DNA of 64,000 nucleotides from Cheilinus undulatus (Eukaryota > Chordata > Actinopteri > Labriformes > Labridae): assembly GCF_018320785.1 (NCBI RefSeq), contig NC_054886.1, positions 30,701,732 through 30,765,731 of the forward strand, in the 5' to 3' direction. Position numbers and translations under genes: made by a program. The notes under the pieces were generated by a model that searched no databases, was not told the DNA's origin, and saw only the letters and a program-made list of their open reading frames with translations. Positions within the stretch are counted from its first letter, which is position 1. Each line of letters opens with the position of its first letter. This document shows, in pieces, positions 34,606-58,920 of the stretch.

Positions 34606-37600
34606 ATGTTTGTCTCTCTGCTGCTGTTCTCGCTCGTGTGCATCGCCAAGGCCACTCACTTTTATGGGACGATGATGACTTACTACCCAAAAACCACTCA
34701 CACAAATGGGTCTGTTGAGGTATGTACAGTTCGATTTTAATCTTTAAAAGTTGTGAGTCAGATAAAGATTTCCTGAATGTCTGGAATGGTCAGAGCAGTT
34801 GCTGCTGTTTTCTCAGTCATTACACAGTTAAATCTGAATTTTTTGGATCCTACATGCTGCCAGCTGATCATCAAAAATCTTTTTTTTTCACTCATTAGAG
34901 CATATTGTTATTTGAAACTTAAAGCCCTGGTCAGACAGAGTGTCTACAGGAAGACAGTTGCAGCTGTCTGAGCTGAGCCCATGCAGTGTGAACCAGGCCG
35001 TCTGATGATCCTGTCTGCTGCTCAGTTTGTCAAACCACCAGCGGCTGATTTTTCATGTTGCATGCAGATAAATGTGAAATGGAAATTATTTTTTTAAAGA
35101 TGCCAGCAAATAACAGTGCAAGTGATTTATTTTATCACGATAAACCATGCTGTGAGTTTTGGGACTTAGTATATCTATTTTTAAACACATTTTTCAAACG
35201 GAACGGCCTAAAAACTCTCCTGTCCTTTCTGTCAGTTGGGCAGGTGAACATTTAAAAATGAAAGCCTCAGTGTCAAAATAATAGCCATCCAATATGTTTT
35301 ACAGTGTATAAAATCATCTGCCTGTTGTTTTGTCTATTTTTCACTTTTGTTTTTTTTCATTTACTTAATTTTTTGTACACATTATGTTATAAATAAATGC
35401 TTCCACCTTAAAACTTTTAAAACAGAAATTCAGAAGACACTTTAAAAGAAAAAGGTCCAACTTTTTGTTTATTCATTCTGTTATTTTGTTGTCTTGTTTT
35501 AATTTATTACTTCAGGAAAATGATGGTTTAAATTTGACACAAGGGCTTTTACTTTAAAATGTTCACTTTTCCCAATGGGTCACATGATTTTCTTTTCTTC
35601 AAGTATTTCATTTGTAAAAGAAAACAGAATAATGGAATTAAAAAAACAAAAATGGACCCCTTTAAAAAAAATGGTTTTCTCTTTTTGTGACCATCCATCC
35701 ATCTTCTTGCGATTATCCAAGGTTGGGTCGCTGGGTCAGCAGCCTTAGCAGGGAAGTCCAGACTTCTCTCTCTCCCTCCGGCGACTTCGTCCAGCTCTTC
35801 CCGGGGATCTCTTTTTTGTCAGAAATTAAAAACACAAAGAAAATGGCTTGTTTTTCTGTTCTGTTTTGTTTTGTTTTGTTTTTTTACACTTTTGGGCAAA
35901 AACAGAATAGCTAGAGTTTCTCACAATTTTGAATCTGCCAAAAATTATACTTACCCCTCTCACTAACCTTGTCACACATGTCCATGTAATTTTTTAATCC
36001 TAAATTTGTTCAAAATATTCCCACCCATCTAAAGGTTTTTTCCCAACGTGGTGAGGGATTGGAAAGCTAAAATAAATGAGGGATTTTGGGTCTCAGAGTT
36101 CCGTACGTACAAAACAGGGCCTGAGGATGGCGTGTGCCACTTCCCAGCAAAGCATGTGATCTAAAAAAAACCAAACAAACAAAAAAAAAAACCAAACGTG
36201 ATGGTAGAATGTGCAGAACTGTAAGCAAACTCTCGTACGACGGTTTTGGAGACAGAGGGAAAATGGTGACACAGTTGTTGGTAAAGAGTTGGTAAACTGA
36301 AACAATCCAAACACCAAGAAGCGGGAAACAGCGTACCATACTGCTCAAATTGGACATTTTAAACGACCATTTGGCTGAAATAAATCCTTTAGCAGACAAG
36401 TAGGTGGCAAGTAAAATGAAGCAAATCTTGTCAGTACCAAAGAGTGCAAATGATGCCAGATAAACATCAATAATACGATTAAAGTAGCAGTTTTCTCTAA
36501 AATACAACCCACAGGTGGTTCTCCGCTACAAGCTGAACTTCCACTCCTGCACAGATGCAGACTCCTGGACCTGCTTATCCGGAGACTGTGGGACTCAGAG
36601 CTTGGAGCTGCACAAGGTGGAGGAGAGCAGCGGAGAGTGGTGTCAGAGAGAGGGTGTTATGACCCGGCAGGTCCCTAGCAACGCTGCTTTTCAGCTGGTG
36701 TGAGTGCACTCATACTAAAATAGTCACCAGGTTTGATTATGGCTGAAAATGTCCTTAGAAAATAGTCAACTCACTCTCAAGGCAGTTTCAAGGCATTTCA
36801 ATTCTTTAGCTGATTCAAATTCATTGAGTAAGAAACTCAGTGCAAACCGTCCTTTCTGTCACAGGTTAGATGGTGGTAACTGGATAAGTGGCATTTTAAA
36901 TGGCATCATTAGGTGGAGAGCTGTGACTTTAGTGGAGCTGAGGAATCGATCAGACACTGGCCAAGCCAACCGATCACCCCAGACCACCATCCTGCCAGCT
37001 CTAAGGTATGAAAATGCTCTGAATGTGTTTCTGTTTGTAGTATTTCTCAAGGCATGTACACGTCACACTGTGGAATGAAAATATCAGCAGCAGATTTAGC
37101 TCCTCCCGAGGCTACAGAGGGACTTTTCTGTCAGTGGAGAACTGGTTAACTAATGTGCCTTTTTCTGGGGTCAGCAAAACAAAACATTTCCTTGTTAACT
37201 GTCTCGTTTTTACCTGTAACTTGTCACATTATTCATTCTCTTTATTTCAGAGTTCCTTCGAACTGTCAGAGAGATTTCCACCTGTTGGCATTTGATCCAG
37301 ATGGAGACGTGGTTAAATGCAGAAATGGAATTACATCTTTAGAGTGCGACCGCTGCACGCCACCGTCTGTTCTTCAGCTCTTGTCTGTGAGTAGCTGCAA
37401 TCCACAGGAACGCCATTTCAGATTGTTTACATGCTTTGATTAAAAGTTAGTGGAAGACAGTTGACTTAGATACTGGTGTCTGAGGCTGACCATGCATCAG
37501 CTGATTCCAGGCCTGATTTTGGGCATGGCCTGATTCAAGGCTTGTCTGAGCTCGAGTTCTTGTTTCCCTGCTAATACAGCCTGCTTGACACATATAACAA

Positions 37601-40600
37601 CCTGACCCTGGAAGGAACTTTCTTTAATTTCTCTTTATATAAGGTGTTTGAACAAATATAATGAAAATTGTGTGTTCATTAAATACATGCAGTCAGCCGT
37701 ACAATATATGCCTATGTTGAATTCAAACAGCAGCAGCACATAGCTTCACATCAGAGGTGGGGTACACCCTGGACTGGTCGCCAGTCAATCGCAGGGCTTA
37801 CGTAGCTCAGCCATCTGCAATTTGCTTTGTTTCGACTTCTTTATTACTTGCAGCAATGACAAACTCCAAATCCTTCAACACTGTTGTTTCCCTGCAAAGT
37901 TTTCAGTTGCTCTAAACTCCCATAGAGACAGGCACCACCCAAATTAGTCAAAATAAACAACCCAAGCACAGTAACACAGGATATGATAGGTAATTATTCA
38001 CTGTTTACTTATTTTTCAGTCAGACATTTTGACCTTCAATATTTTTATCTGCTGGCCATTGGCCTGTGGAAAAAGTCCGTAATTTTTACCATAGAAACTA
38101 ATTTTTATTTTCAATTTCTTGCAGTCCTGCTCCTTGTTGTTTCGCCCCACAAACAGCAGCAATGAAGGTCCGTACGCGGTCCAGCTGGTGATGGAGGACT
38201 TTCCCAGACAGAATATCACACTGACTCAAACCAACGGCATACAGCAGGTGAAAACTACCAACGACCCAATCAGCAAAATACCACTCCAGTTTGTTTTAAG
38301 AGGTAAGATTTTAACAGCATGGTGTTTTAAAATTTAGAAGAGTTTAAAGTCAAAGCTATTTGGCAACAAAAATACTGCAAATATAATAATTAGCATGCCA
38401 AAGACAACTGGCTCTAAAGTGCATGTCATTTATAATAAAGAAAGGCTATATTGGTTGGAAAATGTCACAAATGTACCATTTATTCTGCATGGAATTCAAA
38501 GTAAACTACATTTTCTAATCCTTGATCATAAACATGTCTTACTTTACTAAAAGAAACTTGCAGCCAGTTCTGAATATTTAACTTGAAGATCGACTTCCTG
38601 CTTTTAGAAACTTAGTTTCATTACAAGTCACATCTACCCCTCTCCAAGATGGCACCCAAGTTAGAGTTTACATCAAAGTGTATGACGACCACCATTCTCA
38701 TCCTTAGAAAACTTGACTGTTTGTGCTCCTCTTACCCTTCTAGTGGATGATGCGGTGCCGTCCTGCACTGAGGGACTCTATCTGCCAAAGTTTCTGCCTC
38801 CAACTCCAGCCAACAGAGCTCAGCTGTACGCCTCTGTAAATCAGACCCTGGACATCCACATCAGCGCTGAGGCCAATAATTCCAGGTAGGACGAAAGATA
38901 AGGCTTTTATAAGAATGACACTCAGTAACTGCAAAACTTTTTCTTGTGTTTTGGACAAAGACATGTTTTTTGGATGCACATAAATGGTTTTCAGTTGTTT
39001 AGAGAAACGTGGACTCTGATGTCTATGATATGGTTGATAAGACTGCAGCAACGTAGACAGAACCACCTGTACAGGGTGGTTGGAAGATATACAGTGAAAG
39101 ATTAAGTAACATAACACTGTATTGTTATTTAACACTTGGAAACTATTACAGAAATAGCTAAAAATCAATGCAATGATGAATATAAAACGAGAAGGACTAC
39201 CCTGTTGATTTTTAGGCATGCTTGGGTCAAAAATTCAAGCTGGAGTGAGGTGTAGATGTGTCGAGTATCACCTGAGAGATTGAAACAACTCTAGGCTGTT
39301 CTCTGGATGTCCTTGCATAATATCAGGGGCATGGGAAAATAATCTGTTGAAAGTCCATACTTTTGGGAAACAGTAAGGGGTGGATGTGCATGACTTAGGG
39401 GACCATCTGGATGGGAAGAGGGGTGGCCACAAGCCCCTGGTCATGCTATAAATGTTCCAAGGAACTAAAAACACAGGCAGTCTCCGGAGATATTACCAGG
39501 TGCAAAAAAGCCTGGACAAAATAGATGCTGTCAAGCTTGACCTTGGCTGAAATATCCCATTCAAAACAAGAAACTCAAGGAAACTGATTTTTGTTCAATG
39601 ACCTCTAAAATCTAATTGGTTCATTCTTGAGTCAGAGTGGATGCTGGAGCAGAGCTTGAGAAAGTCCCTGAAAGCATTCCTGAGATGTAATGTAAGAAGC
39701 ACAACATACTTAGGACCTAATTAACATAATGTTTGACCTTTGACCTTCAAAATTTTATCAGGTCATCTTTGAGTCAGACTAGACATTTGTAACAGATTTG
39801 CAGAAATTCTCTTTCATGATTTTTGAAATATTAATCATGATCATCAGGCCTGAAGACCATGCACTCTGACCTCCAAAATCTAATGAGACCTGCAACACTT
39901 TCAAAGTTATTATCTTTTACTGAAAGGGTTTCAAGGCTGGTACTGGTTTGACCACTTTAACACAGTGGCAGTCAAAGAAAAAGAATCTACTGATTAAATC
40001 AACATTTCTAGTGAATTATCAACAACCACCTGAAGGAAGCATCATCAAAATCTCAGCTGAGTCAGATGCCTGTCCACGTTACAATTCCAACTATGTCATA
40101 ACAAAAACAGTTTAGCTCCACGTACACACACGGATGTTGAAATGCTTATCTGACTTACCAAACCTTCTCTTATTGTTTCTGTTTAAGGATTTCTGAGCTG
40201 CTGTTCAGCGGGCCATATAATGTAATTAAGAGCAACACAACAACAGGACAATTCACTCTACAATGGACACCATCAGAGAGCGAGGATGGAGAAAGTCATC
40301 CTATTTGCTTCGTAGTAGAGTCAGTTTCTGGGTAAGGTAGTTTCTACTTTGGTTCTTTAATTAAATGGACAAATATGCAGTACCGTGAAAAAGCATTTTC
40401 CATCCTTGCGATTTTTTATTTTTTGCATGTAAGTATGTCACACTTGAATGTTTCAGATCTTCACATTTTGATATTAGACAGATATAACCCAAATGAATAA
40501 TAATTTAATTTATTAAGGGGTTCCAAACCTACCTTGCCCTTTGTGAAAAAGTCATCGCCCCCTAAACTTAATAACTGGTTGTTCCACACTAGGTGGCAAC

Positions 40601-43600
40601 AACTGCAGTCAAGCATTTGCATGACTGGCAGTAAGTCTTTCACATTGCTGTGGAGGAATTTTGGCCAACTCATTCCAGCATGTACGGCCTGTTTAAGGTC
40701 ATGCTACAACATCTCAAACAGATTTAAGTCCAGACTTTGACCAGGCCACTCCAACACCTTCTGCTTTTTCCAAGCCGTTCAGATGTGGACTTGCTAGTGG
40801 TATTCAGATCATTGTCAGAACTGATACATAACCCAAACGCGCTTGAGCTCTTGGGAATGTTTTTTGGTAGAGAGGAGGATTCATAGCTCCATCAATTACG
40901 GCAAGTGGTCCAGGTCCTGAGGCAGCAAAGCAGCCCAAGACCATTGCACAACCACCACCATGTTTGACTGTTGGTATGATGTTCTTTTGATCAAATGCTG
41001 TGTTAGTTTTACTCCAGATGTAACAGGACGAACACCTTCCAGGATGTTCAACCGTTGTCTCGTCAGTCCACAGAATGTTTCTCCAAAAGTCTTGGGGATC
41101 ATCAAGATGTTTCTTGGCAGATGTGAGATGAGCATTTCTGTTCTTGTGGTCGTGAGTGATTTTGGCCCTGGAACTCTCCCATGGATGCCATTTTTGCCCA
41201 GTCTCTGTCTTAAGCTAGGCATACATCAGAAGACTTTGAAAAGATTTGGAAAAGACTCTTGGAAAACTATCAGCCACACCTGCTCACATCTAAAGACAAG
41301 TTTTTAGAGTTTTTAGTCACAGCCTAGTCTCAGACTGAGATTTTACAAAGACTGTGAATCTTGCAGGGTCACTATTTACAAGACTACTACTAGATTTTTT
41401 TAGCAATTTTTTTCCCACCATGCAATTTTTTTCAAAGTCGTGCTGTGTTGGACAATTCACATCGAACAGGCTGGGCTGATCTGCCCACAGCTCCACCAGC
41501 TGCTCCTCTTTATGGACGGTTCATAATGGTCAATGTTTCACTGCTGGTGTTTCTTGTTCGTCTATGCTGCTCTGCTGCTTTTGTGGTTGTTTTGACCGGC
41601 AGGTTTCCTGTTTCCGGTTTTGTCACTGCTCATCTATTGGTTGTTGATAGTGTTATGTCACTGCGAATTGTGACCATATCAAACACATTTGATATGATTG
41701 CAAGTCCAAGACTAGGAAAAGACTGATATAAAGCAGCACAGATTACCACCTTAAACTTAACAATAGAGATGACGGGAGCGCGCCCTGACTCCAGTAAGAC
41801 TCCTAAAATTTACTAAAGACTTTCAGTTATTAGTCTGTGACTGTGAAAATCTTTTGGTGCAAGCCCAGCATAAGTGTTGAATCATGAACTCTGACCTTAA
41901 CCAAGTCAAGTGAGGCCTGAAGGTTTTAAGATGTTCTGGGTTCTTTCATGACCTCCTGGATGAGTCGTCAATACTCTTTTGGAGTCATTTTGGAAGGCCA
42001 GCTACTCCCCGAGAAGGTTCACCACTGTTCAAAGTTTTCTCCATCTGTGGGCAATGGCTCTCACCATGGTTTGCTGGAGTCCCAAAGCCTCAGAAATGAG
42101 GCTCATTCCAGACTGATAATGTCAATGACTTTGTTTCCGATCTATTCTTGAAATCTTTTAGCTTACTTCACTTTGTCAGACAGATTCTATTTAAGGGATT
42201 TCTGGATTCAATCTGGCTGAATATAATTTAAAAATTTATTTGATGACCTGAAACATGTAAATGTGGAAAATATGCAAAAATGAGAAATCAAGAAGGGGAA
42301 AATACTTTAATATAGCACTGTGGATACTAAATTCTTAGGAAAGTTGCTGTTCTCTTGTGTTTTGAGCCCTGGTTAATTTGGTTTAGTTTAAAGAGGCTGT
42401 GACATTGGTATAAATGAATTCAAGTGACATTAATGGAAACAGAATTTCTCTGAAGTTTGTATTTCCTTATTCAGAATAACCCATATATTCCTGGCTCTGC
42501 TTGTGGCATAATTTAAACAAACAGCTTCCTTATTTACGCCCACAGCTTAGCAAAGTATCACTCAGAGCTACGGTGTGTCATTGTTAGTGTTGGAAACCGT
42601 AAGTAGAAACCTTCCTCATTCTTTCATTCCTTTGACTTCTATTTCTGATGTCTTCCTTCGATAAAGTTGACATGAAATCTTTTCTTATCTCACAACAGCT
42701 GTAGACGTCACTGCAATGACACCAAATACAACAAATGTTCCCTCAACGGCTGCTCTGCCATCTCAATCCACAACAGCACAGAATGCAACGCCATCAACAG
42801 TCTTCACAACACCTGCAACCATAGACTCAAACTTAAGTATGATCAATGCCTAATCTTTCCACAATATTATTCTGTCCTTTTAATGTCTAAGAAAACGCTT
42901 TGGTCTGATGAAAATACACAAAATAAATACCAGAAAGTAAGTTTACAAGGATTCTTTGTCTTGACTGATGCACTAAAGAGGTAACTCCAAATGTTTTGTA
43001 AATAGTCTACTTAGAGTTTAGTTAAAAATGAAATCCTTTTTGATTCAGGAAATGCAACCAGTGGAGCAAGGCAACACAGCTTATACATTTTTCAGTGGGT
43101 CTGAACCTTGAAGTTATTCCAAGAAAAAAAAGACAAACACCTAAAATATGTAGGGTACAATAAGTTTGTGACAACACATCTTAGGCCCAGGCCATGTCAG
43201 ACGAGGGGTGGGGATCCAAACCCGACTTCCAGTCCACCGGCTATGCTGGGCCAGTCTCAGGCTTGGGAAGAGAATCTAACTTCTAATCTTTAAACGAGAG
43301 ATGAGAGATTCCAACTGATCTAGGTAGCACTGAATTGTAGTGAGCCCTAATTAACTAGTAATTTTACAATTTCTCAGGAATAAAGTGGCAATTACTTAGT
43401 AATAAGACAGCATTTTACCAAGTAACAACTCAGAAATGTGGTATATTAAGGAAGTGTTTATCTTGTAATAATGTAATCAGGTAATTCCTCATAATATTGT
43501 GACAATTCTTATTGTGACAACCCTACCCTAACCCCTAACTGTTACCCTAAAAATTACTTGAAAATTATTCAGGAAGGACTGACTTTAATTTAGGGGTCAA

Positions 43601-44448
43601 AGTAAATAAATTACCTGGAATTATTAAGCAACATTTATTGAAAGTTGTCATCTTATTTCTAAGAAATAACTTGCTAAAATACCAAATTACCAGAGGATTG
43701 CCACAATATTATAATGGTTAGGGTAAAGGTACCAGGGTTAGGGCATGAGATTTAGGGTTAGAGTTAAATACCACCCAATTAACAAAAAAAGGCTACAATA
43801 TTATGAGGGTTAAGGTATGAGGATTAAGGGAATAACGGTTAGGGTTAGAGTAATATACGAACTTCACCTCCTTTTTATGTTGCTTCTCTTCTAGTTGTTG
43901 CAGTGCTGAGAGTGAGGATTTCTTCTTCATATCCTCTGTCTGATGAGGACATCAGGAATATTGTCTCACAGGTTAGTCCCCATTTATGCACCGTGTTTAA
44001 AGTCTGTTTTTTTAAAAATACAATTAAGACTTCTACCTATTTCAAATGAATCAGCTGGCTTACATTGCTATCAGCTAGCTCACGTCACTGATAAAACCTG
44101 AAAGAGAGACAAAGGACAGAGTTTTTCATTATTTAAGCAAAATAATCAGACGTAAACAACAAAAACTATCAAGGAAATGTCACGGTGTCTGGTTTAGATG
44201 ATTTGATTCAACAGGAGGAAACAAAAACAGGTGTTCATCTGAAAGAGCTATCCAGAAAATAAAATGTAAAATAAAAATCTCTGAAGTGCAAATAGGAGAT
44301 AACTGTCTGTGAACACAACTGCTTTTTCTTCCTCCAGATTAAAGATGAACTGGTGCGTCGAGGGCTGCCTTCAGACATCACTGTACGCTTTGTGAGAAAT
44401 TTGAGCCTGGAATCTTCAACGTCAGCGCCCCCTGCTGGCACAACCTGA
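34606..44448 (+). CDS. Secreted fish ectodomain protein, tandem paralog A (11 exons, uncharacterised family)
   Basis: Hand-assembled exons: 34606-34719, 36515-36699, 36865-37005, 37251-37386, 38125-38302, 38744-38885, 40188-40331, 42546-42598, 42699-42836, 43895-43971, 44338-44448. All introns are GT-AG; intron phases are 0,2,2,0,1,2,2,1,1,0; total 472 aa. The start has a signal peptide (MFVSLLLFSLVCIAKA) and a good TCACC-ATG context. Exons 2-3 form a Cys-bearing module (SSGEWCQREG, RSDTGQANRSPQTT). Exons 4-5 form a second module (PSNCQRDF, AFDPDGD, MEDFP). Exons 6-8 form a third (PSCTEGLYLPKFLPPTP, HPICFVV, YHSELRCVIVSVG). Exon 9 is a Ser/Thr/Pro-rich stalk, about residues 366-410. Exons 10-11 encode a small C-terminal module (VLRVRISSSYPLSDEDIRN). 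Several N-glycosylation sequons are present (NSS, NIT, NQT, NTT, NAT). There is no transmembrane segment, so it is probably secreted. I recall DPDGD-type ectodomain modules in invertebrate and fish multidomain proteins but know no established name. Function unknown. Confidence 0.85.
35690..35815 (-). repeat. LINE 3' tail, minus orientation, in paralog A intron 1
   Basis: CCATCCATCCATCTTCTTGC then GGTTGGGTCGCTGGGTCAGC and CCAGCTCTTCCC is the reverse complement of the LINE terminus seen at 375-655 and 57.45-57.83 kb. Confidence 0.65.
39590..39910. repeat. Dispersed repeat (GACCTTTGACCTTCAAAAT type), in paralog A intron 6
   Basis: Text of the form ACCTCYAAAATCTAAT...TTGAGTCAGAGTGGA repeats within the stretch. 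A relative is at 53.3-53.7 kb in paralog B intron 4. Intronic. Confidence 0.45.
40586..40599 (+). promoter_or_regulatory. CTCF-like motif inside Tc1-like element
   Basis: ACACTAGGTGGCAA matches the CTCF core CCASYAGRKGGCRS at 12 of 14 positions and sits inside the transposon. Confidence 0.25.
41212..41870. mobile_element. Non-autonomous TIR element nested in Tc1
   Basis: Left end AGCTAGGCATACA and, reverse-complemented right end, ATGCTGGGCTTGCA form imperfect inverted termini. Flanking sequence rejoins the Tc1 text exactly (TCTTA | AGTGTTGAATCATGAAC compared with the uninterrupted CTTATTGCTGAATCATGAAC at 8.33 kb). A TA/TWA-type target duplication is likely. Superfamily undecided. Confidence 0.6.
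43340..43865. repeat. Inverted-repeat element with TTAGGG-like interior, in paralog A intron 9
   Basis: The left half holds CCCTACCCTAACCCCTAAC and right-half text GGGTTAGGGCATGAGATTTAGGGTTAGAG, with AATTACTTAGTAATAA arms. The opposing orientation of the telomere-like words suggests a fold-back MITE rather than true telomeric DNA. Confidence 0.45.
44425..44438 (-). promoter_or_regulatory. CTCF-like core motif in the last coding exon of paralog A
   Basis: Minus strand CCAGCAGGGGGCGC matches CCASYAGRKGGCRS at all 14 positions. It lies within the codons for SAPPAG just before the stop. Confidence 0.45.
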
Positions 44449-44719
44449 TTCAAACTCCTACTGTTCTCTCTCTCACACAGTACCTATGCAAATGAAACTG
44501 TGGTCTTTATTTTAAACCTGTTTGACATGGTATCATGTGTACACTGTGGAGTGATGTTATAAGGCTTTATTAACTCGAGACGGCTTAGATGTAAGAGCAT
44601 GCAGGTTCATGGCTCTACACAGACGCTATAAAGCTGAATTAATATTTAAAGCACTTTTTTGACCTCTGCTGCCTCAGAAACATTATTTTTTTTGCCAGAA
44701 CAAAAAACAAAACACTAAT

Positions 44720-44725: not shown

Positions 44726-44818
44726 ATAACAACAGTCGAATGCAACCAGATTGTGCACTTGTAGTTTACCAGGGGGTAAAATGTACTGCAATGTCCACAA
44801 GAGCTTCATACAATAAAC

Positions 44819-46165
44819 CAGTGGTTCTCAACCTTTCAGCCCGGGACCCCCAAAATATAGGTGCCAGAGACCGGGGACCCCTGCTGTACCTGAAGGTGGT
44901 TGAACACAGCCACACACATGAAAAATAGTCATGTGGAGACAAGGCTGTCCATAAGGAGGGATAAAGGGTGAGGCTTCTGGGACCCAGCCAAACTGGGGGC
45001 CCATGGAGGTCAGCAAAATCATGGTCCACTGGGGGTTAAGCTGTGAAAACCGAATTTTATATTTGACCTAACTAATAATCACTCTTATTGAAGAAAAAAA
45101 TATCTCTTTCTTTTCATTTGTGTAGTAAATAACCTTCTTAAATTAAATAACTTTAGTTAAAAACGTATTTAAGATGCATTGTATAAGTGTTTTGCATTCT
45201 ATAAGAAATGTTTGTCTTTTGCACAGTAAAATAAACTTAAAACTTACACTGGGATATTTTAAAAGTGATTGTTGGTTGGATGAGTCCAGATTTCAAATTC
45301 TTTTTGGAAATAATGGCTGTCGAGTCCTCCAGGCTAAGTTGGGAAAGGAGCATCCAGATCGTTCTGAATGCAAAGTTCATAAGCCAGCATCTGTGATGTT
45401 TGAGGTGTGTTAGTACCCATGGCATGGGTCACTGACACATCTGTGAAGGCAGCATTCATACTCAGAGGTACACGCAGGTTTTGAAGCAATGTATGCTTCC
45501 ATCCATACATCTTTTCCCGGGGTGCCACATTCTGCATGAGTCACAACAGCACGGCTTCACAGTGAAAGAGGGTGGCGCCTACTCCAGTCGAGACCTGTCC
45601 TCCATTGAAATGTATGAAAAGCCACAAACACAAAAAGAAACCTCACACTGCTGGTCAACCTAAGATGTACATCATTAGATTAGTTCATGCAGGCCAAGGA
45701 GTCCAGCACTAAGATCCACCGTAAACCTTCATGAGCTGACAGCTGATTCACTCTAAACATGCTATTGGCTAATCACACTCATGCCACCTTATTAACGCCT
45801 CTCTAGCCAGTCTACTTTTTGCAAGATGCTTTTGGCAACCCTCCTCCACCCCAGCTCCTCCTTTCTTCTGCAGTCTGACTTAATCAGTGTCATTCTGTTG
45901 TCACTGATGCCTGCTCTGCTCTGGGTTGTTTTGCTGCTTCTCTCCCTGCCTCAGGCGTTCATTATACACTCAGAGAGGACAGGAATGTGTGCTGTTAATG
46001 CTTCATGGTTCCCACGCAGGCTTGTGTAAGGGTTCCAGAGCAGCCACATCGACAAATGTAAACAACTGCAATAAGTGCACAATTAAGAAGTGCTGATAAA
46101 GAGGAAATCTTGTGTATCTCTTGGTGAAAGGGTTCCTGACTAAACTAGAAGTAGTGTTTGTTTAT
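44819..46165. mobile_element. Composite hAT-like region with inserted repeats
   Basis: Begins with hAT-type CAGTGGTTCTCAACC at 44819. The right-hand portion (45660-46165) matches the interior of the hAT element at 2937-3589 (CCTCCTCCACCCCAGCTCCTCC). Inserted between them are the CCATAAGGAGGGATAAAGG repeat (44938-45170) and a Tc1 transposase fragment (45235-45660). The right terminal inverted repeat is not recognisable. Confidence 0.5.
45235..45660 (+). pseudogene. Tc1-like transposase fragment (DDE region)
   Basis: The plus-strand frame reads LDESRFQILFGNNGCRVLQA, then KLGKEHPDRSECKVHKPASV and, after frameshifts, LKQCMLPSIHLFPGCHILHE. This is the catalytic region of fish Tc1-like transposases around the second Asp. 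Only the central part is present. Confidence 0.65.
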
Positions 46166-46234
46166 TTCCAGAAAACAATCAAGTTTATCAGCTTCGGCAT
46201 TAAATAATTTGTTTTTGTGCAGTGTGCAAATGGC

Positions 46235-46940
46235 CCAGTGGTTACTAACACCTTGCCACCACTTGCCTACTATTTTAGCCCATATTAGCCCAAATATTTT
46301 TGCCATTACTTTAACCACTTTTGACCCATCTTGCCACTTTTTTAACCATTTTTGCTATTTCTTTTTGCTACTTTTGACCACTTTTTGCGAAATTCTTTGC
46401 CCTTTTTCTGTCCAGTATTTTTACCCCTTTTTTTGTCGCTTCTTTGACCGGTTTTTGGCCTTTTGCCACTTTAACCACTTTCATTTATCATTGCCACTTG
46501 TGTTTGACTTGTTAACTACATTTAACACCACGCTGACACTTTTTTGCTCTTTTAGATACTTGTCAACAATTTCTGCAATTTATTTGACAATTTTGACCTA
46601 TTTTTGCTCCTTTTTTGCTTTTTTAGCCACTGTTAACTACTTTTGCCTATTTTTGCCACCTGTAAAACATTTTTCCCACTTGTGTTTATCATTGTTGGCC
46701 TTTTTCCCACTTTCCTACTATTTTTGACATTTCTTTTGCCAAGTTTGACCTACTTTTTGCCACTTTTTCTACCTGTCAAACATTTTTGCCACCATTTTAG
46801 CCACTTTTGACCATTTTTGCCATTTGTTTGCCACTTTTCTGTCCTCTATTTTTGCCTGTTCTTTGTCTCTTCTTTGACCTCTTCCTGCACTTTTTAAACA
46901 TTTTTACCACTTTTATTTGCCACTTTCTTGAATATTTTCT
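46235..46940. repeat. Degenerate TTTTGCCAC-type minisatellite array 5
   Basis: Irregular repeats of TTTTTGCCACTTTTGACC-like words. The 189-codon open frame across it (46158-46727) is a by-product of the Phe/Leu-rich translation of the repeat. Confidence 0.75.
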
Positions 46941-47387: not shown

Positions 47388-50300
47388 ATGTTCATCTATC
47401 TGCTTCTGATGATGATGATGATGATGATGATGTTTCATGGAGTCGGCTCCCAGAGAACTGATTTCTATGGGGCAGTGGTAACGCATGTCCCAGGACAGGT
47501 GAACAGGGATGGGAAGGTGATGGTGAGTACATCTTCTGAGAAATTAAAGCTATAACCAACCCACTCTGAAAGATTGACTTAAGCAGCTTAGACACTCATT
47601 TAAATGCATTTATTAGCATTTAATTTTGAATTTCACATATTTTGGGGGCATGATACTTATTATTTTCCTATATGGTGAATGTTGTTGCTTGTTGCATTTT
47701 ACCCCAGGTGGTGGATTTCCACTTCAAGGGGACCAGCCGCTTATGCAGCAATTTCAACTATTGGACATGCTCCAGCAGTGATTGTGGGAATGCCAGTTCT
47801 ATTGGGATGAGCGTATCCCACAATGAGAGCAGTGGAGAGTGGTGTCACATGGAGGGAAAGATGACTTGGGGGGGCATTGACAGTGTGACATTTCAGCTTG
47901 AGTAAGTACACCATTTATGTCTGATTTTATACTGTTTCAGTTGCCTTGGGTTGGTCTTCCATCAGCATAACCCCCTGAGCTTTTGTTTGGAGTGGAATTT
48001 TAGTTTCCCTCTTTGTTTGGGATCAAAAGGACCTGACAAGTTAAAACCTCAGCCTTGTCTTTGAACAAGAATTAGTTTTCAGAAACAATGATGTCCACAA
48101 ATATCTTAGAGGTTTTAGGCTGAATGTCGGTCAGTTGTTGGGGGTCTTCAGTCAGTCAGAAACAGTGTCAGTCATAAGAAAGTTATGGTGGAGCCGCTTT
48201 TCCTCTTACTTTGATGATGTACAACAAGGACAGGTTAAGGCCAAGCGTGAATAAAATGTTCACTAAAAATTCAGAGTGTCTTGGAAGTTTTCTGTTGCAA
48301 TATCCACACATTCTCTAGAATTTGAACAAAATACTCAAAATTTCTGTTAAAATTCTCCAACATATTTTCAAAGCATCCCAGAAAAAGTATCACAAAAATT
48401 CTTAAAATACTTCTCAAATATTGCAGTGAAATTTTATCATTAAACTTAATAATTCCAAGGATGCTTTCCACCCAAAATTTTATGAAAATTCCTGAAAATA
48501 TCAAGCAAATTAGCCCTAATTTTCTAAACAAATTTCCAAAAAAATAGAAACATATAATCCAAAATTTGATGAAAATGATGGAAAAAATTCTGAAATATCA
48601 AAACAAATTCCCTAAAAATTCCATTAAAAAATCGTCAAACATTCCAAGGACACATCCTCTGCTAAATGCCAAATCTTAGTCCAAAATTTGTTTTATTGTA
48701 ATTGTTTTTATCTTTAAAATGGCCTTGAGTGATTAGAAAGGTGCTTATAAATAAAATGCATTATTATTATTATTTTTTTTTTGTTTGTCATTGTTATTTC
48801 ACATTATTATTAAAATTTAATACTAATATTCACTAAATTTCCTTGGAAGTTCCTAACAATTTCAAATCATCCGCATATGCCCACCATTGAAAAAAAAAAG
48901 AAAAAAGAAAAAGAAAGAAAGGAAAAAGAAACCTTTAAAAAAATCCTTCAAATTATGAATATACAGTATATCTCCCAAATATCCATGATAATGCCTGAAA
49001 ATTTGCAAACTAATCCCCCAAACATAAGGACTTATTTTCCAAATTCATATGAAAATACAAAAGAACCTTTCAAAGCTACGACCCTCAAAAAGCATCCTGT
49101 GAAACTCTCCAAAATATCCAAACAAAAATGTCCATGAAAGTACATGAAAATTTCAACCAAATGTCCTAAGATGTTAAAAAGAAATACCAAAATTCCATGA
49201 AAATGACTGAAAAGTCTCCAAAATATTAAAAAAAAAAAATCCCTGACATTTCCTTAAAAAAATCTTTTAAATATTCTGAAGACACACCCCTACCCAAATG
49301 CCCAATCTTCTTCCTCAAATGTTCAAATAAACTTCACAAATTTCCATGGAAGTTCCTAACAATTTCAAATCACTCGCATATGCCTACCATTGTCAAAAAA
49401 ATCTAACAAAATTCTCCAACATTATGAATATACAGTATATCTCCTAAATATCATGATAATGCCTAAAACTTTCAAAACGAATCCCCCAAACATCAAAAAA
49501 AAATTTCCAAATTCTGATGAAAATGTCCCCAAATGTTATGAAGAAATTTTAAAATTTCCATGAAAATTCCTAAAAATTTCATAACAATTTCTCTCAAAAT
49601 TTCAAGCAAATTACTAAAACTTTAATGGACATTCTGGATGATTAAAACCCTCAAAACTCTAATAACAGATATTATTACTATGCTGTCAGAAAACCAAAGA
49701 TCTAATGTCCTCATGTTTGTTCAGAGTCGTAGGAGTGTCATGAGAGCTGTGGAACAGTTTTGGTTATACAGACTTTTGAGCTGGGTTCATTTATCAGTAA
49801 ATGTCGACAAAAACATGGCATGGGTCATATTTGTGTTGTCTTTTACCACAAACGTCCACCACAGGTTGAGTAATGCTACCTGGATAGAAAATGTGAACGG
49901 CATCAAAAATCAGAAAGTTGTGACTCTGGTGGATGTGAGAACCCGATCAGACACCGGCCAGGCCAACAGATCACCCCAGACCACCACCCTGCCTGCTTTG
50001 AGGTAAGCCACGCCCCATTCTCTGCTACTATACCCTGGACTGTAAGGTCAAATTGATTTGTCTTTGGATTATTCCAATTCCATCTTCAAAAGTTTCTTAG
50101 ATAGTTTTCCCCAGTCATAAAAGAACATCAGGTTGGCAATGTACTAGTCAAAAATGTTTCTATGTTGATGTAGGTCAACTTCATGTCAACAGATCTGGGT
50201 GAGAGTGATATCACTGTGATGTTTTTATGTTTCAAACAAAAATGAGGTTACACCCAGGAACCAGTGTGTCTAGTTTTGCAAAAAAAAAGGCTTGAAATGG

Positions 50301-53300
50301 GTAAATAACTGAAGTTCTGCTCTACTCTCTGGGTAACCCCAAACCCTCCAAAGTTTTCACACGACTCTGTTTGAGTTTCTAAACTACTTCCTGTACATTC
50401 CAGATAATAGTCTGACACCCTTGGGTCCCTCATGTTTTTTAAAAAATATTTCCGATGATGTTTTAAGCCTGGCAGACGCTGAAATATTTCAAAAGTCGTA
50501 ACAAATTTTGAAAATGTAAACACTTATACATGATGATAAATAAAATTAAGTGTTGTTCTGAAAGTGTGCAGTGTGCAACAAGATGCCAACAAAAAGAGCC
50601 CACGGTCTTGAAACGCCAAATCTTGTGTGGTCAGTGTGACTTTGGAGTAAAAATGTAGATTGGGCTGCCTGTTGGATAACTGGGCCATCAATTGTGGTAA
50701 CAATTTCAGTACAGCTCCTCCCTTGTCAGTTTGATTGAAGTAGGTTTTAAAGTTCATGTTGTATAAACACTTATATTGCCATAAACAAGAAGTTGCTCCT
50801 CCATCTCTGACGTCCATTTAACTTTATGCTTACTATTGCTTCCATGGCTGTGTTTGATGTGCTTCCTCCTTCGGTCAGCTTGCTTCCTGATTGGCTATTG
50901 TTCCATTCCAGGCAACAGTCCTGCTTATAGCTCCTCGGTCCCCGGTGTCCCCCCTTTTCAAGGATAGTTTGGCATCTACATGTAGACAGAGCTGGATAAT
51001 ACAGATTGCATTGTCTATTTCATAAAGATCTGAAGCTACAGCCAGGAGCCAGGTCGTCTAGTTCTGCATAATTGTTTGAAAGGTCTGGACCAAAGTCAGG
51101 GGAACCCCCTACCCTTCAGAGTTTGTAGAAAACTGTGTGCTTTTTCTTAAAAAACTTACTTCCTGGACACATCAGAAACTAGTCTTAATCCCCTTTGGTC
51201 CCTGATGGTATTTTTAAATATCAGATAAGGTTTAAGGCCTCGCACCTGTTAAAAGATGGTCAGTTGGATCGTACTATGCTTTACAGTACATTGTAGAAAT
51301 GCTGTTGCCAAAAATCAAGAAGTTGCTGCTCCGTTACTGACATCCATTTAACTTTATGCTTATTATTGCTTCCATGGCTGTGTTTGTTGTGCTTCCTCTT
51401 TTATGGCTATTGGCAACAATCCTGCTCATAACCGCATGGCTGTCCTCTGTGTTGCTCCTACACAGCAGGATTTCATACCGTAATCTTTAGATGTGTTTTA
51501 TCTATGAATTCAAGTCAGAGCTGCTCAGATCGTGAGTAGATCGGAGAGGGAAATATTGCTCTAAACACACAGGAAACTCTGGCAAGATCATCTTTAATAC
51601 TATGACTTTGGTTGTGAAGGGGGCAATCAGACCCAAAATTAGAATCGGGTTTTCCCCTTTTTTGCCTTCAGAACGGCCTTAAATCCTCACACCGTGGATT
51701 TTACAAGGTGCTGGACTTTAAAGCATCATACAAACTGCACATTTATACCAAAGGGGCTGTATTTGATTGAAATCTGCTGAATGCAGAGCTCGTTAAGTGC
51801 AATCACACTAAAGAAACCAGTCATACACATTTTTAGCTACGTCACATAGCACATTATCATGCTGGCAGCATGCAATGTCTTTTCAATCTTCAAATGTCCG
51901 GTTTTGGTGAGCCGGTTTGAATAGTGGCTTCAGTTTCCTGTTAGCTGACAGGAAGGGTCTTCTGCATACTTTTGTCATAACAAGTTGAGTTATTGGTGTC
52001 AATGAGCTTGAACCAGTCTAGTCATTTCCCTCTGACCTCGATGAGGCAGAACTACCAGTTATTTGATATCTCCTCTTTTTCTTGCTATTGTCCCTCAACT
52101 CTAGAGACGATTATGCATGAAAAACCTGGTGAAATATGACACAAACAACCATGGCACGTTTACTTAAATCACTTAAATGACCCTTCTTTTGGGTTCTAAT
52201 GCTTGGTTTGAACTCCAGGAGATCCTCTTGATCACGTCAGCATCCCTAAATCATTGGATGCTGCCAATTCATAACACCCAAGCAGTGCCACGGACTGATT
52301 GGCTCCATGCCGCATCACTTTGATGCAGTGATTTGTGCAAAAGGTGCAGAAATGAACACAAATTTCTAGAACATTCTGGTATCATAAATCCTTTGTCGTA
52401 TTGGTGTTTTTTTTTAAATATTTTAATATTTTGGATTTTTTTGTCATCAAAATAAAAACACAAAGAGTCTTGAAATATTTCACTTCTTATGAGATGAATC
52501 CAGAATATATGGAAGTTTAATTACATCACAACAAAAATGAGCTTTTTCATGATATTGTATTTACTTTTGGATGCATGTGTACCTAATAAAGTGGCCAGGC
52601 ATGTATGCTAGGTGCTTTCCTGTTCCACCCTTTGTTATAAGGCATTCATACATGACAGATGCTAATGATATCAATCTTCTAATCTCATTTTAAACTCCTA
52701 TGCATGCATAGCTTGAATAGCTGGTTCAAGCTCCAGTGGACATGCATTCTGTTGTAGAGATGAAACAATAATATGATAGGTATGCACATGGATGGTGGTT
52801 ATATGTCTTTGTCTGATAAGTGAATGTGACATCTCTACAATCACAGGAATGCCATGTTGTTTGCAAGAACCCAAAACTGGTTCTGTTTCTCTTTCTCAGA
52901 GTTCCATCAAACTGTCAGAGAGATTTCCAGCTGTTGGCATTTGACCCTGATGGAGACCAGGTTAAATGCAGATACGGGAACGCTTTACTGTTGGAGTGTA
53001 ACCCCTGCACGCCACCGTCTGTTCTTAAGCTCTCTACAGTGAGTAGCCACTGTTCAACCCCAATTACTAAAAAGTTGGGGCGCTGTGCAAAATGTTCATT
53101 TAAAAGGACTGCAATGATTTTCAAACCTAGTAACCCATAATTTATTCAGAATAGAAAATAAAGAACATAGCAGATGAAGGGACTGAGACATTTTACCACT
53201 CCATGAAAATGTTAACTCATTTTGAATTTATACAAAGAATGAACTGGAGTTCCACCAGGATTGATCCCTGCACGCTCAGAGTTCTGACAGTGAGGTAAAC

Positions 53301-56300
53301 CAGTTGACCATTGGCAGATCTAAAGACCTCAAAATTTAACCAGTCCATGCTTGAGTCAGAGTGGATACCACTGTAAAGTTTGAGGAAAATCCATCAAAGC
53401 ATTCTTAAGATATTGCTTCACATGCACAAGGACCATTGTGAGGCCCAGTGACTTTGACCTATGATATGAAATTAAATGAACCATCTCTGAGTCGGTAAAG
53501 ATTTTTGAGCAAAGCTTGGGGTAAATTCCTGGAAGGTTTCTTGGGATATTGCATTCACATGTGGGCTGTGACCTCGACCTTTCACCACCAAAATTCAGCC
53601 AGTCCATCCTTGAGTCAGTGAAGACAACTGTGCAAAATTAAAAGAAAATCCAACAAAGATTTCTTGAGATATTGCATTCTGCAGAAAGGCCCCAATGGAC
53701 ACAGAGACAGCTGTAAACCAATTGCATCCAGCCTTGGCAAGTGCTGACATAGAGGGATTAAAAGAAATGTCTCTTTTGCAGTCTTGTTTGTTGTCATTCA
53801 GCCCCACCAGTCGCAGAAATGAAGGTCCATATGCTGTCCAACTGATGATGGAGGACTTTCCATTGAATAACATCGCTCTGAGTCAACCTTTGGAGTCAGA
53901 GACAGTGACTCCCAACAATGCTATCAGCAAAATACCTGTCCAATTTGTTCTAAGAGGTGAGATTAAAATTACTCAGATTGATTAAATGTAAACCCCACCA
54001 GCTAAACTGATCTTTGCGAAGTGTTTCTTGCAGACATGTTCAATGAAAAGCAACAACAATGATGTTCTCTGATGTTCTAGTGGATCCTGAGGTGCCGTCT
54101 TGCACAGAGGGACTCTTTCTGCCCAAGTTCCTGCCTCCAACCCCGGTGCATGGAGCTCGGCTCAGCACCCACGTCAATCAGCCCTTGGAAATCAGAATCA
54201 ACGCACGGGCAAATATGTCACTGTAAGTCACAAGAAAAACAACTAAAGGCACTCTTTAGATGGAACTCAGCCTTCAGGAATAAACATTAGCCTTCAGGAA
54301 CTTACATTTCTGTCTGGTGAAGGATCTCTGAGTTGCTGCGGAGTGGGCCATCTTCTCTAAACCAGACAATGGTTGGACCAGGAGAATTCATGGTGAGATG
54401 GACACCTCATGAGGGTCAAGGTGGAGAGATACATCCAATCTGCTTTGTTGTCCAAGCACTTTTGAAGTGAGTCTTCATTTTTATTTCAAATTGTTATACT
54501 GTCATTATTAAAACCCGATTCAAAAGAGTTGGGACACTGTGGAAAATGTGAATAAAAATAGAAGTGATTTACAAATTTCTTCCAACTTATATTTAACTGA
54601 ATACAGCTCAAAGATAATCAACGCAGACTAATGAACTTTAGAGTTTCTCTGTAGAAAGCAGTCAAACGTGGTTATAGAAAGTGGAATTCTTTCCCATTCT
54701 TACTTGAAATACATTTTGATTGTTCAAAAGTGTGAGGTTTTGCCACTTTAAACTTATTTTAACTGTCTTTTTAAGAAAAGGGGTTTACATTTTTAAGAAG
54801 GCTATAAACTATTAACCTGACAAGACTCTTGTATGTACATTGCATGCAAATATTCCACATTCATCTGGGAAAGCTCCCACTGAAAGCATTTGGGAAATGC
54901 AGGACTTTAAAAAAAAATTCTCAGAAGGTGATTGGAGGAACATTCTGTCTGTCACATACATGACGGTCCAATCAGAGCGACAAGACCAAATGATGTTCCA
55001 CACATGCGCTACTCTTGAGCTGACAGGCTACCGCTGCCGTAGATTGTTAATGCCGGAGCTTCTCGGGTAAAGAAAATTGATGCCAAGGCTGGCCGGGGTA
55101 CGTGCAAAAACATCTCCTCTGCTGAGACAAGCTTTTGGTGTGGCTCTATGCTCTTGTTTTACAAATAAATTTGGTCCAGTTCTGATTAAACTGCTGCTTT
55201 TTTACAGCTACATCCAAGCTAACTGCAACCGCAGCAGCAGCCATTGGCAATCCCCATCCCATGACGATCACAAATTTGTCCCGTAACAGGCTGGGAGAAG
55301 AGCGAAAACATCTTCTCTGTAATGAAAAGCTTTCAGAGTTGCTCTAAGCCCTTGGTTTAATAAAGGAATGAAGTCCAGTTCTGACAAAACGGCCACTGGG
55401 GCTACATCTGAGCTAATCGCTCTACAAGCAGACATTGTATACAACCACTCACGCAACAACTAACCCTTTCCCCTGAAACTTTCATAAACTCATGCCCAAG
55501 CAGGTTGGCAGAAAAACACGTTTCACATCAAGAAAAGCTTTTAATGTGGTCTTTATTCCCTATTTCATACAGAAACGTGGTCCAGTTCTAGAAAAAGTAA
55601 CGCAATTCTAAAGCTACATCTGAGATCATTTTTGCACTGTAGGCAGCCGATGAAAACCGCATCAAGTACAACAAAACCCTGCCAATAGCTACTGCCTCAC
55701 TCTCCTCCAATAAAAATGATTGATCCAAACAGTGTCCAGTTCGGGACAAATGTTGTGGATTGGAGCTTTCAAGATGGATTTGCCTGATGACAGAGAAGGA
55801 GTCTGGCAAACCCATCTGCTTTGCAAGTTTGGCGCAAATACATTTAAAAAATGTTGCATTGATAAGAATGGATATTGATCAGGTAAAAAATGAAATATAG
55901 TTATCACAGTAGTATAACTTTATAATGGGACATGATTTTGCTGACCTCCATCAACCCCCTTTATGGGCAGTCTTTCCTGATACCAATTAATCTTCTCACC
56001 TGTTGAATGTTCACCTTTCCCCGTCTTTTCTTACCCCTGTCCCAACTAATTTGGAACATGTTGCAGGCATTAGGAATGTTGTGTATGTTAAAAAAACAAA
56101 GTTTAGCATTTTGAACACTGAATGTTTTGTATGTGTTCTGTATATAACTGAATAAAGGATTAAAATGATTTGCAGATCACTGTTTTCAGTTTTTAATTCA
56201 CATTTTACTCAATGTAACATTTTTAATCGATGTTTCTAAATAGAATTTCCATTTTTTAACCAAACTCTTCATGAATTTCTTTAGTGGAACTAAGTATCAC

Positions 56301-58920
56301 TCAGAGCAACGATGTGTCATTGTAACGGTGGCAGGTGAGCTGAACTCTTTCTGTTGTTTTAAAGTCATTTCTGATTGTATGGACGGCATTACCAACATCC
56401 CTTTTTCAATTCTCTTGCATGTGACAATGACTACACCAGAGGATAGCCCATTCCCCCCAGAGATCACAGACGTCCAACAATGTATGACCACCATTCACTA
56501 TTACTTTATCATGACAATGACGTTAATCTCAAACAATAGAAATATGGTCACATGGTCCATATTTCCTCATCGGCCTTGTTCCTGTGGTATCATGCTCAGG
56601 ATGGAAAACATATGTTATCATGTTGTACTTTTATATTCAAGGTCATTTTTGGTAATTACAACAATAATGGATGCTGAAAACCCTGAGAGGGATGGGACCT
56701 CTTCATGAAGTTAAATGTAGCCTTCTGCTACCTCCTTGCTATTATTTATGTTTGATAATGATGATCCTGGGCTGCATGCTGTCTTGGTGGTTAGGATTGT
56801 TACAGTCGAAGAAATTCTGTCCTATGTTTTCCCCAAATATCTTATTTTTTAACTTGTAACCTTGGATTACTTCAAGCCCCAGCTGAGGCAGCTTGGTCAT
56901 GTGCAGTGGCTGTAGAGATCTTCATCCTTCCTTGGCCAGTAAGCATATATATCGTCATCCTGCCGACAACGCCAGTTTGCTGAGAAAATCAATTGAACAC
57001 TGTAAGGTGTCCAGCAATGATGACGAATCACTGGGATATCACTGGAGGTTGGGCTTGTGTCCTGCTCCAGAGCAAGACCATTCTGGGTGTAGCTCGGCGT
57101 AGCCCAGTGAGGCCAAACTGGTGATGGAAAAGTAAGTCAGCATGGCCAGGTTTGGATTAGTGTAACCAAAAGTCATTGTGGATTAGTCCCATTGTTTTTT
57201 GGGTTAATTGAGGATGGCTGGTTGTCTGTCAGCCTTGTGACTGAGTGGTGACCCTTCCTCTCACCCACTGACAGCCAGGATTGACTCCAAACCCATGTGA
57301 CCCTGAATGGTAGGAGCAGTGTAGATAATGGATGGTAAAACTCAGTGTATGTATTTACATTCACAAAGTAAGGTTAACCATTCTGGACTGTATTCAAGCT
57401 ACATTACTTTGATGTTACTCCATTTTCACAGACTTTTGATTTACCCTTCAGTCTATCTTCGAACCCTCACCTATGGTCACGAGCTTTGTGAAATGATTAC
57501 TCAGCAGTGAAAAGAGTTCCCTCAAGATGGTATCTGGGATCATCCAGAGGGAGTTCAGAGTAGGGCCTCTGACGCTTCACATTGAGATGCTTCAGGCATC
57601 TGATCCCTTTGGTTGTTTTTAGGGTATGTCCAACCAAGAGGAGACCCTAGAGTAGACCAGAACCTCCTTGAGGGATTATATGTCTTGTCTTGACTGTGAA
57701 CTCCCTGGGTTTTCCCTAACAGGAAGCTGGAAAAGTTGCTGGATGAGAGGGATGTCTAGGGTGGCTTACTTAGCCTACTGACACTACAACCATGTCCGTC
57801 ATGGTTGGATGGATGCATCTATCCATAATTCAGTACCATAATCTAAAAACAAAACAACAGAGGCCACAATCTCAACATTTATGTGATAAACAATCATGAA
57901 AATAACAGTACGACATGATAACTACTTTAGAGTTTACCGCCTTGAGTGTGACATCTAAGGAACATTGCTGTTTTCTTCTTGCCTTCCTTGAAATCCTGAA
58001 TCACTCTCTTTCTAGATATCCTTGGACTGAGAGTGAGGATTTCCACTCCATTTCCAGTGACTGACAAGGAAATTGCTGCCTTAATGCCAGAGGTAATCAT
58101 CAGTTTCATGTCATCCTGTTGTAGCATGAAAATATTATATGCAGACATCTTAGATATGTAGATACAGGCATTTGGTTTATATTTAAAGCTGATAAGTTCA
58201 ATAGATGTCTGGCTAATATGTTATATTTTTTCTTGTGTTTTTCTTTTGGTACTCTGCATTCTGAGTTGCTCTTTTTATTAATGAATGTAAATGAACTTGC
58301 CTTTTAATCAGGGCCCAAGCACTGAGTGGTGGAGAGCCCTATAGTAATCTAAACAGTCGGGTTCGTCATTATTATTTCCCCCACCCTTTTGGGCACCATG
58401 CTTAAAACGAAAGAAAATGGGCATGCATATGTGTTCTGAAAAATACAAGGTTGGACAGGTGTCACGACTGGCCATCAGGAATTGCCTCAATGGCGCCACT
58501 TTTTGTGCTTCAATGGAACAGCCCCAAAAGTTACTTCCACCCAGAGTTATGAAATTTGGTGGACAGATTCGGCTTAGGGAAATCTACAAAAAAGTCTCTT
58601 GGAGCAGAACCCCAACTCCAACAGGAAATCTACCATTCTGAATAAATTGAAAAAAATTGGGGTGTTTTGGGCCTGTTCCAGGTGTGATCTAACTAATCTA
58701 ATTGCTGTCACTTTAAGTCAAAGATGCTTCAGTTTATCAGCACCAGCTCTAGCATACCTCCAGCTGCTCTTCTCACAAGCATTTCCAAGTTAACCCTAAT
58801 GTTATGCCATCACTTTCTATGTAATTTCTATTCCAGGTCGAAGCAGTCTTAAAAGCAAAGGCAGAGGCATATGGGGTACCGCTGCACCACTTTTTGGCCA
58901 TCTTTAGAGGCCGAGTGTAA
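47388..58920 (+). CDS. Secreted fish ectodomain protein, tandem paralog B (10-11 exons, uncharacterised family)
   Basis: Hand-assembled exons: 47388-47522, 47708-47901, 49865-50002, 52900-53038, 53782-53956, 54081-54222, 54323-54466, 56285-56334, (optional 56461-56481), 58016-58092, 58837-58920. This gives 425 aa, or 432 with the optional micro-exon. Intron phases match paralog A at every junction. The modules are those of A: SSGEWCHMEG and RSDTGQANRSPQTT; PSNCQRDF, AFDPDGD and MEDFP; PSCTEGLFLPKFLPPTP, HPICFVV and KYHSEQRCVIVTV; then LRVRISTPFPVTDKEI. Differences from A: the signal peptide contains eight consecutive Met codons (residues 8-15); the Ser/Thr-rich stalk exon has lost its ancestral acceptor; the last exon is shorter and diverged (ends FRGRV). 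Exon 7's acceptor has a weak pyrimidine tract. No transmembrane helix follows the ectodomain. The gene appears functional since all other frames and splice sites are intact. Function unknown; the tandem position suggests a locally expanding family. Confidence 0.82.
48240..49640. repeat. AT-rich degenerate repeat with a long direct duplication, in paralog B intron 2
   Basis: Built of words such as CCAAAATTTCCATGAAAATT. A unit containing GGAAGTTCCTAACAATTTCA and ATTATGAATATACAGTATAT occurs twice (about 48650-49040 and 49270-49500). The first copy carries an extra piece of about 120 bp: a LINE 3' tail. Confidence 0.65.
48675..48795 (+). repeat. LINE 3' tail with (TTA)n end
   Basis: GGCCTTGAGTGATTAGAAAG then GTGCTTATAAATAAAATGCA and an ATTATTATT tail; a typical fish non-LTR terminus. 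It is inserted within the first copy of the 48.65/49.27-kb duplication. Confidence 0.55.
50243..51440. repeat. Direct duplication in paralog B intron 3
   Basis: Two diverged copies, 50243-50960 and 51040-51440. They share TTAACTTTATGCTTA and ATTGCTTCCATGGCTGTGTTT near their ends, and CAGGARCCAG...GTCTAGTTYTGCA near their beginnings. The second is about 270 bp shorter inside. Non-coding. Confidence 0.55.
52230..52612. repeat. Fish dispersed repeat (CTAATAAAGTGGCC type), in paralog B intron 3
   Basis: GCAGTGCCACGGACTGATTG, AGATGAATCCAGAATATATG and terminal TGTACCTAATAAAGTGGCC are hallmarks of a common fish DNA repeat. A partial copy is at 17.32-17.63 kb. Confidence 0.55.
53055..53225. repeat. 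Transposon terminal fragment (AACCCCAATTACTAAAAAGTT type)
   Basis: Matches the left end of the DNA transposon at 30345 and 54510 (AAAAGTTGGGGCGCTGTGCA, CATTTTACCACTCCATGAAA). Lies just after paralog B exon 4. Confidence 0.55.
53300..53700. repeat. Dispersed repeat (ACCACCAAAATTCAGCCAG type), in paralog B intron 4
   Basis: Related to 39590-39910: repeated phrases CCATCCTTGAGTCAGTGAAG and TTGAGATATTGCATTC. Intronic. Confidence 0.45.
54510..56215. mobile_element. DNA transposon remnant hosting nested repeats, in paralog B intron 7
   Basis: Left end CGATTCAAAAGAGTTGGGAC; right part TTTTCTTACCCCTGTCCCAACTAATTTGGAACATGTTGCAGG, the inverted partner. Internally it carries the minisatellite edge (54725-54815, reverse complement of the 26.98-kb phrase ATAGCCTTCTTAAAAATG) and the helicase-exon array (54840-55840). 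Confidence 0.6.
55080..55690 (-). pseudogene. Tandem triplicate of a RecQ-like helicase N-terminal exon
   Basis: Three diverged units of about 190-210 bp (55081-55286, 55287-55497, 55498-55686), all readable on the minus strand. The middle one retains MSACRAISSDVAPVAVLSEL and LRATLKAFHYREDVFALLPA, aligning with the N-terminus and the approach to Walker A of RecQ-like helicases. The others carry stops and frameshifts. A palindrome like that at 4.09-4.15 kb follows at 55755-55835. Confidence 0.5.
56419..56481 (+). pseudogene. Decayed stalk exon (exon 9 equivalent) of paralog B with lost acceptor
   Basis: This 63-nt stretch reads VTMTTPEDSPFPPEITDVQQ in the phase expected for exon 9 (1-1) and ends at a GTATGA donor. 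The position where the acceptor AG should sit reads TCTTGC-ATGTG, so the AG is missing. A fresh acceptor-like TTCCCCCCAG at 56451-56460 would give a 21-nt in-frame exon (56461-56481). Skipping also keeps frame. The alignment start VTMTTP parallels VTAMTP in paralog A. Confidence 0.5.
57450..57830 (+). repeat. LINE 3'-end fragment, in paralog B intron before exon 10
   Basis: AACCCTCACCTATGGTCACGAGCTTTG (an RT C-terminal landmark), then GAGGGAGTTCAGAGTAGGGC, TTGAGGGATTATATGTC, GGAAGCTGGAAAAGTTGCTG and the GGTTGGATGGATG tail. Same family as 375-655 but starting further upstream. Confidence 0.7.
58310..58690. repeat. Dispersed repeat (GGGCCCAAGCACTGAGTGG type), in paralog B last intron
   Basis: GGGCCCAAGCACTGAGTGG at the start, ATTATTATTTCCCCCACCC, and AGTTATGAAATTTGGTGGACAG resemble a widespread fish repeat that begins GGGCCCGAGCAC. 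Intronic. Confidence 0.5.

Follow-up and report, generated by a model that had tools for sequence, protein, structure and literature searches.

The window, that is, the whole stretch of 64,000 nucleotides of Cheilinus undulatus DNA that was analysed, holds two adjacent predicted genes, complete in appearance, on the + strand. Gene 1 occupies positions 34606-44448, from the ATG at 34606 to the stop codon ending at 44448, and consists of 11 exons encoding 472 aa; gene 2 occupies positions 47388-58920, from the ATG at 47388 to the stop codon ending at 58920, and consists of 10 exons encoding 425 aa. Both models were assembled one exon at a time, on the basis of open frames and splice signals. All 19 of the 19 introns have GT-AG ends, which is a consistency check and not independent proof, since the boundaries were chosen on GT-AG. 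The exons of the two genes, and a neighbouring TRIM gene, are as follows.

28635-30014, - strand: TRIM gene made of a single open frame and bearing RING, B-box and PRY-SPRY; it lies about 4.6 kb ahead of gene 1 and on the opposite strand
34606-34719, + strand: gene 1 exon 1, signal peptide and first part of the mature protein (ATG, hydrophobic N-terminus, GT donor)
36515-36699, + strand: gene 1 exon 2, cysteine-rich first module with SSGEWC (AG/GT, phase 0-2; alignable to gene 2 and to the relatives on contig C1)
36865-37005, + strand: gene 1 exon 3, RSDTGQANRSPQTT (phase 2-2)
37251-37386, + strand: gene 1 exon 4, PSNCQRDF...FDPDGD (phase 2-0)
38125-38302, + strand: gene 1 exon 5, MEDFP (phase 0-1)
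38744-38885, + strand: gene 1 exon 6, PSCTEGL...LPKFLPPTP (phase 1-2)
40188-40331, + strand: gene 1 exon 7, HPICFVV (phase 2-2)
42546-42598, + strand: gene 1 exon 8, YHSELRCVIV, last exon of the common ectodomain (phase 2-1)
42699-42836, + strand: gene 1 exon 9, linker rich in Ser and Thr (phase 1-1; some 30-aa windows reach at least 50% S+T+P)
43895-43971, + strand: gene 1 exon 10, tail part 1, LRVRISSSYPLSDEDI (phase 1-0)
44338-44448, + strand: gene 1 exon 11, tail part 2 and stop (phase 0, in-frame stop)
47388-47522, + strand: gene 2 exon 1, signal peptide containing a run of Met
47708-47901, + strand: gene 2 exon 2 (phase 0-2)
49865-50002, + strand: gene 2 exon 3 (phase 2-2)
52900-53038, + strand: gene 2 exon 4 (phase 2-0)
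53782-53956, + strand: gene 2 exon 5 (phase 0-1)
54081-54222, + strand: gene 2 exon 6 (phase 1-2)
54323-54466, + strand: gene 2 exon 7 (phase 2-2)
56285-56334, + strand: gene 2 exon 8, YHSEQRCVIV (phase 2-1)
58016-58092, + strand: gene 2 exon 9, tail part 1, counterpart of gene 1 exon 10 (phase 1-0; DNA match of 79% over 47 bases)
58837-58920, + strand: gene 2 exon 10, tail part 2 and stop, the least certain exon (open frame, AG acceptor and position; stop at 58918-58920)

The two proteins align over 410 residue pairs with 54% identity, and their exons follow the same order. The initial annotation had described a tandem pair of secreted genes with matched intron phases, and this description was borne out by the two + strand models, the second of which ends exactly where that annotation had placed the end of the pair. 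Both genes contain the motifs that it quoted, one after another in the expected order along the + strand, and the junction phases are 0,2,2,0,1,2,2,1,0 in gene 1 and gene 2 alike, identical at the nine common junctions. A chance assembly of unrelated exons is ruled out by the nine identical phases together with the single alignment. Gene 1 alone possesses an additional exon, the linker at 42699-42836, which is bounded by phase 1 on either side and could thus be gained or lost in frame; when a linker of this kind was sought in gene 2, no 30-aa window with S+T+P of at least 50% was present between exons 8 and 9. Alignment of the gene 1 region with the gene 2 region by blastn gave 8 matches, of which 7 are exonic and one, the sole intronic match of the pair, joins 39597-39686 to 53322-53411. 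The two tail exons are the weakest part of the pair, with 29% identity over 48 aligned residues. In the signal peptide of gene 2, an ATG repeat at 47409-47432 produces a run of eight Met residues, which may have a repeat-driven origin.

The divergence of the two coding sequences was estimated by the NG86 method. The results showed a dN of 0.37 and a dS of 0.83, giving an overall dN/dS of 0.45. Among the separate blocks, the ratios computed from the NG86 values ran from 0.30 (exons 4-5) through 0.37 (exons 6-8) and 0.48 (the tail) to 0.57 (the part of exons 1-3 beyond the signal peptide), all these figures being averages over two sequences. Only in the 17 aligned codons of the signal peptide was dN larger than dS (ratio 1.7). 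The values give no sign of wholesale adaptive change in the pair, against which they argue, and are compatible with selection at single sites. Gene 1 and gene 2 look like an old tandem duplication under purifying selection overall. No further copies on C22, the contig on which the window lies, came to light when the 1.17-Gb genome was searched with gene 1 and with a relative on contig C1 termed copy A. The family had been called fast-duplicating, which is not supported by the identity of the pair, its dN and dS and the outcome of these searches.

An immune or mucosal role had also been suggested for the pair. A secreted recognition family diversifying under microbial selection would be in agreement with proteins that are secreted, rich in cysteine and supplied with many N-glycosylation sequons (11 in gene 1 and 7 in gene 2), and with tandem copies lying near a TRIM gene. 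However, the overall and block ratios given above, which exceed 1 only in the signal-peptide codons, and the failure to find further copies on C22 speak against such a family, and we consider this explanation unlikely. The TRIM gene itself, to which the initial annotation had pointed, is real, as judged from its three domains, but it gives no functional link to the pair.

Each protein starts with a hydrophobic N-terminus and contains no other 15-residue window with a hydropathy above 1.8, which is as expected of a secreted protein; secretion, claimed earlier, is thus predicted here as well. By hydropathy no membrane anchor was found in gene 1 or gene 2, and by eye no C-terminal cleavage site. 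The earlier statement that no standard domain name fits the proteins also stands. Neither of them reached a Pfam cut-off, gene 2 being scanned without its last exon, and no match to Ig, FN3, EGF or LRR at the curated Pfam cut-off was obtained for gene 1, gene 2 or the front end (exons 1-8) of copy A. A PDB sequence search with gene 1 and with a four-sequence profile returned no solved structure at a meaningful E-value; NCBIfam gave no match to the four front ends, and Rfam gave 0 matches at the gathering threshold. Several weak candidates were set aside, namely Pfam Saw1 (E 0.097) and DUF5576 (E 0.061), which are below cut-off, and the PDB entries 7arc_U (E 0.16 with gene 1) and 1f3u_B (E 1.4 with the profile). 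Scans for prokaryotic and viral relatives, using two short peptide patterns per scan, yielded 36 pattern matches in genome contigs and 133 in viral ones, none of which was confirmed. The acidic FDPDGD loop of the window genes resembles the DPDGD loops of Ig-like or cadherin-like repeats; the window proteins differ from such repeats in having no match at a Pfam cut-off, in NCBIfam or, to any notable degree, among PDB sequences. The literature searched contained nothing on point about a named family for the front end, which does not imply its absence from print.

What the initial annotation overlooked is that the front end, by homology, is part of a family of ZP proteins elsewhere in the genome. 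The genome search with gene 1 at E<=0.001 gave 21 matches, of which 13 lie in the window and the other 8 on contig C1 (2.93-3.04 Mb), where 180 kb were read and three copies of the front end, A, B and C, were recognised. In its front end, gene 1 is 38% identical to copy A over 360 aa (E 6e-83). Exons 1-8 of copy A have the phases 0,2,2,0,1,2,2,1, the same as those of the window genes, and no internal stop, and 12 cysteines are invariant across four aligned front ends. The window genes and the C1 ZP proteins therefore share one front-end family by the homology of exons 1-8, by their cysteines and by their phases. Copy A matches ZP-C (1.4e-30) and ZP-N (2.1e-16) in Pfam, and in 3 of the 3 clustered copies ZP exons lie downstream of the front end on the same strand. 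The C-terminal region of copy A shows, by eye, the basic motif RRKRE followed by a TM-like hydrophobic stretch, an arrangement like that of anchored ZP proteins that are released from the membrane ahead of assembly. Exon 5 of the C1 copies contains a Thr/Pro-rich insert with WWWW runs after a basic KRRKRQ-like site, which is absent from the window genes. The length of this unusual Trp-containing mucin-like stretch varies among the three copies.

Recent duplication is seen in the C1 cluster. Copies A (C1:2.926-2.944 Mb) and C (C1:3.029-3.046 Mb) are inverted duplicates, 90-97% identical over seven aligned pieces of more than 700 bases. A stop codon interrupts exon 4 of copy C, so that one copy may be broken or the assembly may be at fault. 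The genome search with copy A at E<=0.01 gave 32 matches. Of these, 22 fall in the cluster and 7 in the window; the other three lie elsewhere on C1, two at 2.397 Mb and one at 54.2 Mb. The locus at 2.397 Mb is a fifth, partial copy whose matches are confined to exons 1 and 2. At 54.2 Mb, front-end exon 4 was matched with E 0.0015 in the genome search and 3e-8 in a 10-kb stretch, together with a weak match to exon 5 (E 0.05); after these exons comes a ZP-N exon that passes the Pfam cut-off (2e-6), and the last ZP exon was matched with E 1e-4 in a 20-kb stretch. A ZP match was obtained by Pfam in one of the four frames scanned at this locus and none in the candidate ZP-C frame. This divergent locus (C1:54.186-54.206 Mb, - strand), which has a Thr-rich C-terminal region, is perhaps an older, single-copy member of the family.

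No ZP module was detected in the window by any of the searches made for it. Pfam gave no ZP match in the proteins of gene 1 and gene 2 (the latter without its last exon), tblastn of the copy A ZP module against the window gave nothing at E<=0.05, and none of the 65 genome matches listed for PF00100 (ZP-C) falls in the window, the nearest on C22 among the matches listed being 4.6 Mb away. After exon 8, in phase 1, the C1 copies continue into the ZP module, whereas the window genes continue into a short two-exon tail, which gene 1 reaches through its linker exon. Genome searches at E<=1 with the gene 1 tail and with the gene 2 tail each gave 2 matches, both to the query's own exons, and neither recovered the tail of the other gene; at E<=0.1 the C1 cluster likewise gave nothing with the tail of gene 1. 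As the tail exons are short and each search missed the neighbour's tail, absence elsewhere is weak evidence. The window genes may be ZP-less because the ZP module was lost there or because it was gained in the relatives. Similar uncharacterised fish proteins are presumably present in the databases, some with a ZP module and others with a tail resembling the one in gene 1.

The missing ZP module, the lack of a detected linker exon in gene 2 and its divergent last exon would also be accounted for if the window genes were decaying fragments from the duplication of a ZP gene. A relic, however, is expected to hold stops, as exon 4 of copy C does; the frames of the two genes are open over 10-11 exons, with the dN/dS reported above, and decay is very improbable.

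The reading that we prefer, with a probability of about 0.6, is that the pair represents old tandem, secreted, ZP-less members of a family that otherwise carries a ZP module, and that they may act as soluble partner-binding ectodomains. We are highly confident of the anatomy, in which a common eight-exon front end with the same cysteines and phases is followed by a ZP module in the C1 relatives and by none in the window. The front end, about 340 residues long, would form an ectodomain with disulphide bonds, facing a lumen or the extracellular matrix and serving to bind a partner. A cut at the dibasic site would, in the C1 relatives, free the ZP module from the membrane anchor, and the freed modules would polymerise into filaments displaying many ectodomains. 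At the phase-1 junction that leads into the ZP exons in the relatives, the window proteins would carry a small tail; having neither the ZP module nor the anchor, they should be released as soluble, non-polymerising ectodomains. They would most likely bind the partner or the filaments of the relatives, as soluble modulators, competitors or decoys. This mode of action is put forward tentatively, at somewhat less than even odds. The known systems that come closest are ZP-module proteins with an extra N-terminal ectodomain, of which uromodulin is the type. The C1 relatives share with the window genes the eight-exon front end and its phases; the window genes differ from such proteins in having no ZP-N or ZP-C match, no anchor-like segment and a short tail of their own.

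Homology to ZP-module relatives would also agree with the pair being egg-coat or perivitelline proteins, as many ZP proteins of fish are, the ZP-less members serving as soluble components. Egg coats are described as built of ZP proteins, which in some fish are made in the liver (PMC13361971); proteins of the kidney and the inner ear, however, use ZP modules as well (PMC13361971). We regard an egg-coat role as quite unlikely.

A front end with fixed cysteines and a length of about 340 residues, which has no Pfam cut-off match and no PDB sequence relative, is nevertheless carried by ZP-module proteins, and a name for it would ease the annotation of a group of matrix proteins in fish. Comparison with the ZP-less pair is a natural way to approach the role of the ectodomain apart from filament assembly. 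A bolder and rather doubtful extension is that the front end is an undescribed set of extracellular domains existing in two forms, one displayed on ZP filaments and one released in soluble form, which would bind the same partner or cap the filaments; the window pair would then be dedicated soluble regulators of a ZP matrix whose C-terminus was exchanged at the phase-1 intron.

Some features of the surrounding DNA were also noted. Intron 7 of gene 1 contains, by eye, a Tc1/mariner-like transposase remnant at 40804-41214 on the - strand, and a 1-kb query (40000-41000) overlapping this remnant had at least 45 matches in the genome including itself, with 40 of 5877 candidates scored. T-rich repeats of the TTTTTGCCAC type, similar in appearance by eye, lie upstream of each gene (33110-34145 and 46155-46900); similar frames are present at C1:54.2 Mb, so that this is probably an interspersed repeat.
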